Shown here piece by piece: positions 13,618 to 49,711 of a stretch of 64,000 nt of DNA (positions are counted from its first letter, which is position 1; the number at the start of each line of letters is the position of its first letter). This stretch comes from Vibrio ishigakensis (lineage in GTDB: Bacteria > Pseudomonadota > Gammaproteobacteria > Enterobacterales > Vibrionaceae), in assembly GCF_024347675.1 (NCBI RefSeq), contig NZ_AP024881.1, positions 682,001-746,000 on the forward strand. The letters run 5' to 3'. Both the position numbers and the translations under genes were made by a program. Under the pieces are notes generated by a model. The model ran no database searches. It was not told the origin of the DNA and saw only the letters and a program-made list of their open reading frames with translations.

Positions 13618-13702
13618 TGGTGCGGAAGGAGAGACTTGAACTCTCACACCTTGCGGCGCCAGAACCTAAATCTGGTGCGTCTACCAATTCCGCCACTTCC
13701 GC
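13618..13702 (-). tRNA. tRNA-Leu (anticodon UAG), copy 1 in map order
   Basis: 85 nt including an encoded CCA end. The acceptor stem GCGGAAG pairs with CTTCCGC, a long variable arm typical of tRNA-Leu is present, and the anticodon loop reads TTTAGGT. Confidence 0.97.
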
Positions 13703-13756
13703 AACAAATTCTGTAGTCACTGTCAGTAATTGGTAAAACTAACAAGACGTTGTAAA

Positions 13757-13833
13757 TGGTGGCTACGACGGGATTCGAACCTGTGACCCCATCATTATGA
13801 GTGATGTGCTCTAACCAGCTGAGCTACGTAGCC
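13757..13833 (-). tRNA. tRNA-Met (anticodon CAU), elongator
   Basis: 77 nt with encoded CCA. The acceptor stem GGCTACG is fully paired, so this is the elongator form and not the initiator, which has an unpaired first base. Confidence 0.96.
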
Positions 13834-13846
13834 ACTCTAGAAAAGA

Positions 13847-13931
13847 TGGTGCGGAAGGAGAGACTTGAACTCTCACACCTTGCGGCGCCAGAACCTAAAT
13901 CTGGTGCGTCTACCAATTCCGCCACTTCCGC
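13847..13931 (-). tRNA. tRNA-Leu (UAG), copy 2
   Basis: 85 nt with encoded CCA, same sequence as copy 1. It begins the first unit of a series of near-identical Leu-Gln repeats. Confidence 0.97.
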
Positions 13932-13986
13932 ATCAATTCTGTAGTTATACCGACGATTGGTAAAATCAATATAACGTTGTAATTAG

Positions 13987-14061
13987 TGGCAGGGCTACCT
14001 GGATTCGAACCAGGGAATGGCGGCATCAAAAGCCGCTGCCTTACCGCTTGGCGATAGCCCT
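13987..14061 (-). tRNA. tRNA-Gln (UUG), copy 1
   Basis: 75 nt with encoded CCA. The acceptor stem AGGGCTA pairs with TAGCCCT and the anticodon loop reads TTTTGAT. Confidence 0.96.
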
Positions 14062-14095
14062 ACTGGATTGTTTGAAGTGTCAATCACACTAAAGA

Positions 14096-14180
14096 TGGTG
14101 CGGAAGGAGAGACTTGAACTCTCACACCTTGCGGCGCCAGAACCTAAATCTGGTGCGTCTACCAATTCCGCCACTTCCGC
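14096..14180 (-). tRNA. tRNA-Leu (UAG), copy 3
   Basis: 85 nt with encoded CCA, same sequence as the other Leu copies. It starts exactly 249 bp after copy 2. Confidence 0.97.
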
Positions 14181-14235
14181 ATCAATTCTGTAGTTATACC
14201 GACGATTGGTAAAATCAATATAACGTTGTAATTAG

Positions 14236-14310
14236 TGGCAGGGCTACCTGGATTCGAACCAGGGAATGGCGGCATCAAAAGCCGCTGCCTTACCGCTTGG
14301 CGATAGCCCT
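14236..14310 (-). tRNA. tRNA-Gln (UUG), copy 2
   Basis: 75 nt with encoded CCA. It lies 249 bp from Gln copy 1, and the spacers around the two copies also match. Confidence 0.96.
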
Positions 14311-14344
14311 ACTGGATTGTTTGAAGTGTCAATCACACTAAAGA

Positions 14345-14429
14345 TGGTGCGGAAGGAGAGACTTGAACTCTCACACCTTGCGGCGCCAGAACCTAAATCT
14401 GGTGCGTCTACCAATTCCGCCACTTCCGC
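14345..14429 (-). tRNA. tRNA-Leu (UAG), copy 4
   Basis: 85 nt with encoded CCA. It lies 249 bp after copy 3. Confidence 0.97.
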
Positions 14430-14483
14430 ATCAATTCTGTAGTCATAGTCGATGATTGGTGAATCAACTAGACGTTGTATTAG

Positions 14484-14558
14484 TGGCAGGGCTACCTGGA
14501 TTCGAACCAGGGAATGGCGGCATCAAAAGCCGCTGCCTTACCGCTTGGCGATAGCCCT
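14484..14558 (-). tRNA. tRNA-Gln (UUG), copy 3
   Basis: 75 nt with encoded CCA. The spacer before it differs slightly from the two previous units. Confidence 0.96.
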
Positions 14559-14609
14559 ACTGGATTGTTTGAAGTGTCAATCACACTGCTCTTTATTTCA
14601 AGAGAATAA

Positions 14610-14694
14610 TGGTGCGGAAGGAGAGACTTGAACTCTCACACCTTGCGGCGCCAGAACCTAAATCTGGTGCGTCTACCAATTCCGCCACTTCCGC
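14610..14694 (-). tRNA. tRNA-Leu (UAG), copy 5
   Basis: 85 nt with encoded CCA. The interval from copy 4 is 265 bp because of a short extra spacer (GCTCTTTATTTC region). Confidence 0.97.
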
Positions 14695-14748
14695 ATCAAT
14701 TCTGTAGTTATATCGATGATTGGTAAAATCAATATAACGTTGTATTAG

Positions 14749-14823
14749 TGGCAGGGCTACCTGGATTCGAACCAGGGAATGGCGGCATCAAAAGCCGCTG
14801 CCTTACCGCTTGGCGATAGCCCT
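14749..14823 (-). tRNA. tRNA-Gln (UUG), copy 4
   Basis: 75 nt with encoded CCA, same sequence as the other Gln copies. Confidence 0.96.
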
Positions 14824-14858
14824 ACTGGATTGTTTGAAGTGTCAATCACACTGAATAA

Positions 14859-14943
14859 TGGTGCGGAAGGAGAGACTTGAACTCTCACACCTTGCGGCGC
14901 CAGAACCTAAATCTGGTGCGTCTACCAATTCCGCCACTTCCGC
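14859..14943 (-). tRNA. tRNA-Leu (UAG), copy 6
   Basis: 85 nt with encoded CCA. It lies 249 bp after copy 5. Confidence 0.97.
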
Positions 14944-14996
14944 AACAAATTCCGTAGTCATTGCCGATAATTGGTAAATCGACACGACATTGTAAA

Positions 14997-15073
14997 TGGT
15001 GGCTACGACGGGATTCGAACCTGTGACCCCATCATTATGAGTGATGTGCTCTAACCAGCTGAGCTACGTAGCC
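14997..15073 (-). tRNA. tRNA-Met (CAU), elongator, copy 2
   Basis: 77 nt with encoded CCA, same sequence as the Met gene at 13757. Its flanking spacer also resembles that copy. Confidence 0.96.
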
Positions 15074-15165
15074 ACTCTAAATTTGGACGAGAGAATATAA
15101 ACTAATCTCGTTTTATTTCCAATACTTTTTTAAAGAAAGTTAGAAACAATCCTTCAAGAAAGTAG

Positions 15166-15240
15166 TGGCAGGGCTACCTGGATTCGAACCAGGGAATGGC
15201 GGCATCAAAAGCCGCTGCCTTACCGCTTGGCGATAGCCCT
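15166..15240 (-). tRNA. tRNA-Gln (UUG), copy 5
   Basis: 75 nt with encoded CCA. It is separated from the neighbouring Met gene by an unrelated AT-rich spacer. Confidence 0.96.
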
Positions 15241-15248
15241 ACAAAATA

Positions 15249-15333
15249 TGGTGCGGAAGGAGAGACTTGAACTCTCACACCTTGCGGCGCCAGAACCTAA
15301 ATCTGGTGCGTCTACCAATTCCGCCACTTCCGC
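15249..15333 (-). tRNA. tRNA-Leu (UAG), copy 7
   Basis: 85 nt with encoded CCA. Only 8 bp separate it from the next Gln gene. Confidence 0.97.
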
Positions 15334-15374
15334 TTTTTATTTCCTAATTGCTCTGTATAAAAGCATTTAGGAAA

Positions 15375-15451
15375 TGGTGGCTACGACGGGATTCGAACCT
15401 GTGACCCCATCATTATGAGTGATGTGCTCTAACCAGCTGAGCTACGTAGCC
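15375..15451 (-). tRNA. tRNA-Met (CAU), elongator, copy 3 (first gene of the operon)
   Basis: 77 nt with encoded CCA. It is the promoter-proximal gene of the array, about 50 bp downstream of the predicted transcription start. Confidence 0.96.
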
Positions 15452-30002: not shown

Positions 30003-30587
30003 TTATCCAAGGCGCTTTTGATGGCGCTCTCGGTTTTCTAATTTCTTCTCTGGGTTCTTCTTCAGCATCACATACACTGCACCGGAACCGCCGTGAAAAG
30101 GCTGTGCAGAGTGGGCGCATAGCACCTCATCTATCTGCTTGAGCCAAAAGGCCACGTAACTTTTCATTAGTGCTGGTGGATTGGAATTATGTCCTTTCCC
30201 GTGCACTAACAGTAGGGTTCTGGCTTCCATTCTTAGGCTCTGCTTAAGGAAGTGAACCACTTCATCTCTAGCTTGTGTCAGAGACTTGCGGTGTAGATCC
30301 AGCTTAGCCTGAATAGGGTACTTACCAAGGCGCAGCTTTTTGAATACACCATCTTGTACACCACTCTTCTTGTACTCGATGATGTCATCGGGTTTAAGCA
30401 TAGGGGCATTATCTAGGGTTAGGTATTCGGGCAGTTCTTCCTCTAGGCTCACCGCTGCTTGACGTCGTTCCAGATGGTTTTGGTCCACCTGATGAGTCTT
30501 CTTATGCAAAGCGGTATCTTGCTGTAGAGGTTTCACATCTCCCATCAACTCTTGAAAAGAGAAATCTTCATCAAATTCTTGAGACAT
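30003..30587 (-). CDS. smrA: Smr-domain endonuclease SmrA
   Basis: The 194-residue product resembles E. coli SmrA (YdaL): an N-terminal half with VFKKLRLGKYPIQAKLDLH and a C-terminal Smr domain with LDLH at 96-99 and HGKG at 129-132, then HGGSGAVYVMLKKN. SmrA has nicking activity on DNA in vitro; its biological role is open. It is distinct from the ribosome-rescue paralogue SmrB and is followed by rluF. Confidence 0.88.
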   Translation of the reverse strand: MSQEFDEDFSFQELMGDVKPLQQDTALHKKTHQVDQNHLERRQAAVSLEEELPEYLTLDNAPMLKPDDIIEYKKSGVQDGVFKKLRLGKYPIQAKLDLHRKSLTQARDEVVHFLKQSLRMEARTLLLVHGKGHNSNPPALMKSYVAFWLKQIDEVLCAHSAQPFHGGSGAVYVMLKKNPEKKLENRERHQKRLG

Positions 30588-30690
30588 GGCTGAATCGGAG
30601 TATGAGTACGCAGTTATTTGATTATACCTGACTCAGGGGCGATTGTGCATCTTGTGACTTGTATCTAGGTCAACAGCCCTAGTCTGAAAA

Positions 30691-30783
30691 GAAAAAACCG
30701 AAGCACGGGAAAGCACTTCGGTGGCAATAGATTGAATTGCAAACTGATCTAGTGAGGAGATTCATCACTCAAGGCTGAATGAC
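30691..30783 (-). ncRNA. Candidate FNR-activated small RNA
   Basis: No open reading frame is present, but the minus strand has every part of a small-RNA gene. The start is predicted near 30783: a near-perfect FNR box is centred 41.5 bp upstream and a -10 TAAACT lies at 30791-30796. The predicted 93-nt RNA has a 5' hairpin (TCATTCA/TGAGTGA), an unpaired CU-rich stretch TCTCCTCAC able to pair with ribosome sites, and a terminator ACCGAAG...CTTCGGT followed by TTTTTTC. The sequence is not like E. coli FnrS as recalled. Confidence 0.7.
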
Positions 30784-30790
30784 TGAGTAC

Positions 30791-30831
30791 AGTTTAATTT
30801 GTGAGAGATAAGTAATCATGATCCTGATCAA
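30791..30831 (-). promoter_or_regulatory. FNR box and -10 of the candidate small RNA
   Basis: On the minus strand TTGATCAGGATCAT at 30818-30831 matches the FNR consensus TTGATnnnnATCAA in all but the last position. A -10 TAAACT lies at 30791-30796. The spacing is that of a class II FNR-activated promoter. Confidence 0.65.
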
Positions 30832-30949
30832 TTGTTATTAAAAGGTAATTTGTAGGTGTAAAAAACTGTAAGCAGTGTCTCATTTTGTTACTGTGGGACT
30901 AAAATATAAGCATGTAGAACAAAAGCTCAGACTTTTTGATGTATTGCCC

Positions 30950-30977
30950 TTGCAAGGCACGTAAATATCCGTAATAT
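30950..30977 (+). promoter_or_regulatory. Promoter of tRNA-Pro
   Basis: A -35 TTGCAA and a -10 TAATAT lie 16 bp apart, with the GC-rich stretch CGCGG after the -10, as in other stable-RNA promoters. Confidence 0.65.
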
Positions 30978-31009
30978 ACGCGGTCTCAACGGCAAAGACG
31001 TTGACCAGT

Positions 31010-31064
<55 letters not shown>

Positions 31065-31086
<22 letters not shown>

Positions 31087-31372
31087 CTATTTTGAAAGCC
31101 TGTCAGAAATGACAGGCTTTTGTCGTTTAAGAGTTTAGAAAATGCTTTGGGTCGGGTGCGGATGGCCGCCCCGCTGGAACGCCAGTCCGATCGAATCCCT
31201 CTTCACCGACCACTATTTTGAAAGCTTGTCAGAAATGACAGGCTTTTGTCGTTTTAGAGTTCAAGAAAATGCTCTGTGTTGGGTGCGGAAGGCCCTCCAC
31301 GAATGGCCGCCCGTTGAATCCTTTTTCTCAGGCTCCATTTAGAAAGCGCGTCAGAAAACGATGGACTTTCTA
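31065..31372 (+). repeat. Tandem degraded repeats of the tRNA-Pro 3' end and terminator
   Basis: The last 22 bases of tRNA-Pro plus its terminator (31065-31130) recur at 31191-31256 almost unchanged, 126 bp downstream. A third, strongly decayed copy is recognisable at about 31314-31372. The spacers between units also share GGGTGCGGA and GGCCGCCC stretches. No second intact tRNA remains. Confidence 0.75.
31095..31122 (+). terminator. Terminator of tRNA-Pro
   Basis: AAAGCCTGTCA, a GAAA loop and TGACAGGCTTTT make a perfect 11-bp stem. Confidence 0.92.
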
Positions 31373-49697: not shown

Positions 49698-49711
49698 TTG
49701 ATCGAGATCAA
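49698..49711 (-). promoter_or_regulatory. FNR box upstream of citC
   Basis: TTGATCGAGATCAA is a perfect match to the FNR consensus. It is centred about 60 bp before the citC ATG; with a -10 AATTAT at 49667-49672 it would lie near -44, compatible with FNR activation under anoxia. Confidence 0.75.

Follow-up and report, generated by a model that had tools for sequence, protein, structure and literature searches.

A candidate FNR-controlled small RNA beside smrA in Vibrio ishigakensis and its likely origin as the 3' end of an mRNA for a small DUF3149 protein

FnrS is an FNR-activated small RNA (sRNA) of E. coli and Salmonella, and narK with its sRNA NarS is likewise under anaerobic control. The candidate RNA described here, encoded in a 64,000-nucleotide stretch of the Vibrio ishigakensis genome (the window), resembles FnrS in being short, terminator-ended, putatively FNR-controlled and expected to act without oxygen. 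It differs in sequence and locus, has no Rfam match and appears to derive from the mRNA of a small protein. An earlier sequence-only reading of this DNA had already found it unlike E. coli FnrS in appearance, and the Rfam search agrees, returning solely tRNAs at the gathering score and, on positions 30500-31000 at E values up to 10, three sub-threshold snoRNA matches. The RNA family is new to Rfam. OueS, which we take to be an oxygen-related sRNA of V. cholerae, could be the same RNA as that of the window; an open-access literature search by the name OueS found nothing.

In the available text of PMC9438474, NarS is a 3' untranslated region (3'UTR)-derived sRNA of narK that involves RNase E and has nirC as its target. 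The arrangement in relatives of the window's species likewise appears to use the 3' end of an anaerobic mRNA as an sRNA, but the gene is unrelated, and the RNA in the window has no open reading frame (ORF) and directly follows its promoter. The V. cholerae sRNAs OppZ and CarZ are 3'UTR-derived and control their own operons, and OppZ, which is conserved in Vibrio, is released by RNase E immediately downstream of a stop codon (PMC7398697, available text). They would share with the DUF3149 arrangement of the relatives an origin from Vibrio mRNA 3' ends; in contrast to what that text describes, the seed here overlaps the stop codon and the ORF has repeatedly been lost. SgrS (PMC9438474) and VcdRP (PMC8672173) combine a small protein and a base-pairing RNA in one transcript, as the DUF3149 loci would also do. 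The difference, so far as the available text of these papers goes, is that here the seed lies within the last codons and the RNA outlasts the ORF in several lineages. Vcr043 of V. cholerae is an Hfq-bound sRNA with electron-transport targets (grxA, vc0036 and sdhC; PMC9732341, available text). Its listed position lies next to a sigma-70 gene, with VC1045 and VC1046 on either side (PMC8545128, available text), and because this is not the smrA/tRNA-Pro locus we regard Vcr043 as distinct on grounds of location. Among the matches listed, the open-access literature searched contained no Vibrio FNR-controlled sRNA at this locus, and the RNA counts as new with respect to Rfam and to those open-access papers.

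Anatomy of the candidate RNA

The candidate, from box to terminator tail, occupies 30831-30686 of the minus strand, and the locus comprises the following features:

30831-30818, minus strand: FNR box TTGATCAGGATCAT, matching nine of the ten specified positions of TTGATNNNNATCAA
30796-30791, minus strand: -10-like hexamer TAAACT, weak (four of six positions), read by eye in the sequence
about 30783, minus strand: predicted 5' end of the RNA, placed from the -10, with the FNR box then centred at about -41.5
30783-30764, minus strand: 5' hairpin GUCAUUCA-GCCU-UGAGUGAU, from the RNA fold
30762-30746, minus strand: seed AAUCUCCUCACUAGAUC, unpaired, CU-rich and complementary to Shine-Dalgarno sequences, from fold and conservation
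30740-30724, minus strand: small hairpin GCAAU-UCAAUCU-AUUGC, from the fold, in a region that varies among species
30722-30697, minus strand: stem of an intrinsic terminator with a T-rich tail containing TTTTTCTTTT to about 30687, from a terminator scan
30867-30882, minus strand: CRP-like site TGAGACACTGCTTACA, degenerate in the window (eight of ten positions of TGTGA-N6-TCACA) and aligned to the conserved TGTGAccAAAAACACA
30003-30587, minus strand: smrA, encoding the Smr-domain DNA endonuclease SmrA (NF033154, 258.7 bits; PF01713), downstream of the RNA
30649-30621, minus strand: promoter-like site of smrA, one found against 1.2 in shuffles and hence within chance
31010-31086, plus strand: tRNA-Pro (TGG), the divergent neighbour of the RNA

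Most of this architecture had been proposed in the sequence-only reading. The FNR box is indeed present, but the 13 or 14 matching positions then reported include free N, and nine of the ten specified positions match. The -10 at a suitable distance, the short 5' hairpin, the exposed stretch complementary to ribosome-binding sites and the terminator with its U-run were each recovered, and we found no ORF of at least 40 amino acids on the minus strand within the RNA, as that reading had stated. Folded from 30783 to 30685 (99 nt), the RNA reached -24.8 kcal/mol against -14.5 ± 2.8 for shuffles (z -3.7), with one of 200 shuffles equally good. The terminator scan gave a single site in 30500-31000 against 0.4 ± 0.7 in shuffles. 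A general promoter scan, which requires a -35 hexamer, did not pick up the candidate FNR promoter. FNR boxes with at most one mismatch occur five times in the window, where 3.1 are expected; the box alone is thus weak evidence, its count being about at chance level, and the case for the locus rising above chance rests on comparative sequence conservation, not on the box by itself.

Other elements were seen in the window. The sole mismatch-free TTGATNNNNATCAA site (TTGATCGAGATCAA) lies at 49698-49711. At about 31120-31340, degenerate tRNA-Pro-like fragments adjoin the intact tRNA-Pro, with repeated GGTCGGTGAAGAGGGATTCG and terminator-like hairpins (by eye), and similar broken tRNA-Pro copies are visible in loci L027, L028, L074, L107 and L116. 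On the minus strand, 13618-15451 is densely packed with 15 tRNA genes in tandem, arranged in repeated units of Leu-TAG, Gln-TTG and Met-CAT.

Conservation of promoter, seed and terminator across Vibrio

To compare the locus across the genus, we used SmrA as an anchor. It was matched in 145 of 148 genus genomes, five weak matches (E 1e-10 to 1e-14) were excluded, and the regions upstream of smrA were surveyed at 140 loci, the window's own included. L104, L149, L151 and L155-L157 are short stretches, among which solely L151 (337 bases, contig end) is not judgeable. The CU-rich motif ATCTCCTCA, tallied so as to include seeds without AA before TCTCCTCA, is kept in 126 of the 140 loci with a terminator-like tail after each, and the exact FNR core TTGATnnnnATCA lies 40-360 bp upstream of it in 125 of these 126. 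The exception is L032, whose box departs from the core at one base and whose ORF is broken. Altogether, box, ORF and motif occur together in 103 loci, box and motif with a broken or absent ORF in 22, the L032 combination in one, the ORF without the motif in three and neither in 11. The motif is missing in 14 of the 140 loci, and in all ten judgeable loci lacking both motif and ORF the box core was absent from the whole available stretch. The closest relative of the window in the set, G117, is without box and motif, as are nine other uncut loci, and the RNA is therefore dispensable in places.

The promoter was profiled on 121 distinct sequences from 123 loci with box and motif (L147, which has no flank, was dropped), with the box core fixed by the selection of rows. 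Counted from the start of the FNR box, we found TGTGAccAAAAACACA conserved at -51 to -36 and, at +35 to +41, conservation of a T/A-rich block, which corresponds to the -10 register. If transcription begins, as predicted, about 48 bp beyond the first base of the box, FNR would bind at -41.5 and the CRP-like site would lie near -91.5. The consensus of CRP is TGTGA-N6-TCACA, and FNR near -41.5 with CRP near -91.5 is the layout of E. coli ansB. The locus thus shows what is expected of an FNR-activated sRNA in sequence, a conserved FNR box upstream of an aligned -10-like element, the -41.5 distance being counted from the predicted start.

At the other end of the RNA, the consensus terminator helix comprises ten pairs, seven of which show changes on both sides in 67 sequences; a check of covariation had been suggested in the sequence-only reading. 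Outside the terminator there is little covariation, confined to the 5' hairpin of the window's clade. That reading had also named lack of conservation of the hairpins and the box in related vibrios as grounds for abandoning it. Box, seed and terminator are instead kept in most of the genus and in motif-bearing loci of other genera, and the 5' hairpin is kept within the clade. The interpretation given there is in part supported, as the sequence evidence favours an FNR-type promoter and, behind it, a structured RNA without an ORF that ends in a terminator and exposes an anti-Shine-Dalgarno stretch.

A model (R1), built from 67 of 115 distinct tails picked for length and spread, found matches in 65 of 150 family genomes at E of at most 0.01. 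Because six of the 20 matches inspected (L319, L326 and L330-L333) lack CTCCTCAC, which the other 14 carry, weak R1 matches were not counted as members. At the R1 matches L330, L331 and L332, three genus genomes have in common a second conserved element, GACAAAATATACCACAC...AATAGGTACATTTTGACTAAA with a terminator behind it, which lies at a different locus and is possibly a further sRNA or a 3'UTR element.

The DUF3149 gene and the fate of its reading frame

The RNA in the window has no ORF and so does not form the 3' part of a protein-coding message. At 103 of the 140 related loci it does: a full 46-codon ORF for a DUF3149 (PF11346) membrane protein lies between box and motif (typical match E 1.8e-15), which are then 199-210 bp apart, and the motif itself encodes the end of the ORF, ...SPH-stop (TCT CCT CAC TAG). 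This link to the 3' end of a DUF3149 mRNA is beyond what a single sequence could show. The genome of the window gave no DUF3149 match at E of at most 0.001, whereas across the order 64 of 148 genomes have a match to the domain, which in 57 of them exceeds the curated cut-off. The survey beyond the genus comprised 30 loci, 27 of which lie outside it, with the ORF readable by pattern in ten of those 27. In other genera of the family, all 11 motif-bearing loci read carry an intact ORF (ten with the exact box core), and the intact ORF therefore looks ancestral. Six loci of a different family, f10 (L292, L306, L307, L309, L310 and L314) have a DUF3149 ORF just before the apparent smrA start (by eye), with an FNR-like TTGACC(A/C)ACATCAA upstream of the ORF and without the seed; oxygen control of the DUF3149 protein thus looks older than the sRNA. 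An open-access literature search for the name DUF3149 found no paper.

The ORF has been damaged in various ways in the 23 loci that keep the motif without it, 22 of them with the exact box. There are frameshifts or stops (for example in L026, L070, L075 and L142), a single stop in L106, a frame change in L148/L366, shortened forms (L062, L145 and L137) and lengthened ones (L135 and L143), and L329, outside the 140 loci, presents another broken ORF beside an intact seed. In the halioticoli clade (L019, which is the window, and L021-L025), the ORF has been wholly replaced and box and motif are 69-71 bp apart. We mapped these states on an unrooted SmrA tree of 59 proteins (28 with intact ORF, 27 with the ORF lost and the RNA kept, and four with the RNA absent; six duplicate rows omitted). 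The intact or lost state of the ORF changes nine times, with three to four changes forced by well-supported branches. The ORF-lost group set against all other rows requires ten changes (bootstrap 9-10), of which starred branches force at least four; setting the intact group against all others likewise gives ten (bootstrap 8-10; at least three forced), numbers that are rough because they come from a single short protein and an imperfect tree with many open forks. The loci probably form a series of mRNA-to-sRNA conversion, in which an oxygen-controlled small-protein gene whose last codons are the seed gave up its coding part on several independent occasions across Vibrio and kept the RNA, the halioticoli clade having arrived at an sRNA that truly stands alone and whose 5' hairpin has newly evolved.

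The conserved 3' end might instead be a cis element of the DUF3149 mRNA, serving stability, translation termination or end protection, with the window retaining a leftover. The seed does overlap the stop codon in 103 of the 140 loci, and many mRNAs have conserved terminators. We nevertheless consider this unlikely, as the seed persists, in several lineages, in the 23 loci that have no intact ORF to regulate, while the sequence separating box from seed has there diverged, shrunk or grown (69 to 251 bp).

The clade of the window, which has 100/100 support on the SmrA tree and includes V. superstes and V. breoganii, carries the 5' hairpin at the former position of the ORF. Its inner seven pairs are paired in 62 of 62 cells across nine clade sequences, compared with 19-63% for slid partners; five of the seven pairs vary, and one of them has both of its bases changed, but the shuffle control is not decisive, since 70 of 500 shuffles score as well as the hairpin. 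The complete pairing, together with a seed that is nearly unchanged within the clade while the flanks differ, makes it improbable that the RNA in the window is a pseudogene transcript of recent decay whose promoter and terminator have yet to erode. The joint loss of ORF, box and motif in ten uncut loci, G117 included, would fit such decay, but the pattern of the clade repeats in other lineages.

We also considered whether the C terminus of the DUF3149 protein (KSPH) is constrained at the protein level, with the nucleotide motif as a by-product. SPH is invariant in 87 distinct ORFs, which were chosen to carry the motif, but so is much of its codon choice (TCT in 87/87, CCT in 87/87, CAC in 84/87 and AAA in 83/83). 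The synonymous choice is frozen also where the motif was not a condition: among 91 distinct 46-amino-acid ORFs, codons 42-46 have the lowest relative synonymous entropy of any five-codon window (0.089, against 0.37 for the next-lowest non-overlapping window and a median of 0.69). As conservation extends beyond the stop codon (TAGATC) as well, selection acts at the RNA level on the end of the gene, and with the motif also kept in the 23 loci without an intact ORF, a purely protein-level cause is very unlikely. That the RNA is a leader or attenuator of smrA, which lies directly downstream on the same strand, can practically be dismissed, because the terminator intervenes and smrA has the promoter-like site listed above, itself within chance.

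Candidate targets and proposed mode of action

The sequence-only reading had further suggested that the RNA represses aerobic genes. This is unsupported so far, as scans of the window's own genome, of genus genomes and of near genomes gave no convincing conserved target. In the own genome, the patterns GTGAGGAG-N-ATG and TGAGGAGAT-N-ATG matched 17 and 11 sites against one and none with the reversed controls, an excess that is no evidence of targets because Shine-Dalgarno sequences explain it. Across 61 genus genomes, AGTGAGGAG-N-ATG showed recurring spacers among the matches listed (30 loci read), the chief one before a 67-amino-acid Cys-rich protein (L246 and L254, the two loci read) that is not among the own-genome sites. 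For TGAGGAG-N-ATG in seven near genomes, spacers likewise recurred among the matches listed, which cover four of the seven; one of these spacers is that of site L206 in the own genome, where the ORF looks by eye like a ribosomal protein. Since ribosome-binding sites recur anyway, none of these is claimed as a target. As a separate observation, the 67-amino-acid MHKYTEKHVSCPHCGHAIS protein has AGTGAGGAG as its ribosome-binding site in L246 and L254, with similar spacers in the listed sites of some other genomes.

The best own-genome duplex involved a YfcZ-like gene (named by eye) that is present in 29 of 31 genomes. Its start was readable in seven of 29 loci, and L338, of the same clade as the window, keeps AGGAGATT. 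We rejected the gene as a conserved target, given that TGAGGAG occurred in none of the six relatives with a readable start (six of 28).

An anti-Shine-Dalgarno seed is a generic feature, which counts against the specific reading as an sRNA. On the other side stand the features that recur in the alignments, namely the conserved promoter, seed and terminator, the overlap of the seed with the end of the ORF, and the loss of the ORF with the RNA retained; a U-tailed intrinsic terminator combined with an unpaired conserved seed is also what is expected in sequence of an Hfq-type sRNA. Taken together, we consider it very likely that the locus is a stand-alone base-pairing sRNA gene derived from the 3' end of an anaerobic DUF3149 small-protein mRNA. 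We infer that the minus strand would give, when oxygen is absent, an sRNA that extends from about 30783 to 30687 and measures about 95 nt, with FNR bound at -41.5 activating transcription and, in most species, CRP acting near -91.5 too. The 5' hairpin would cap the RNA, and the U-tail would serve termination and probably Hfq binding. The unpaired AAUCUCCUCAC would pair with Shine-Dalgarno regions of mRNAs, and such CUCCUCAC pairing would block translation of its targets in trans. In most members of the genus, this promoter would give the mRNA for the 46-amino-acid DUF3149 membrane protein. The sRNA would there be the 3' end of that mRNA, running from the final codons through the terminator, and would act as part of the message or after excision, for instance by RNase E. 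In the window's own clade, the ORF has disappeared and the 5' hairpin occupies its position.

The origin of new sRNA genes is largely open, and here intact, decayed, shortened and fully converted forms coexist in one genus. Because all of them share one FNR-type promoter within that genus, it is possible to test in which order the steps occurred and what the protein and the RNA each contribute. If the proposed reading is true, vibrios would gain an oxygen-controlled sRNA, and the locus would point to a role for the DUF3149 small membrane protein.
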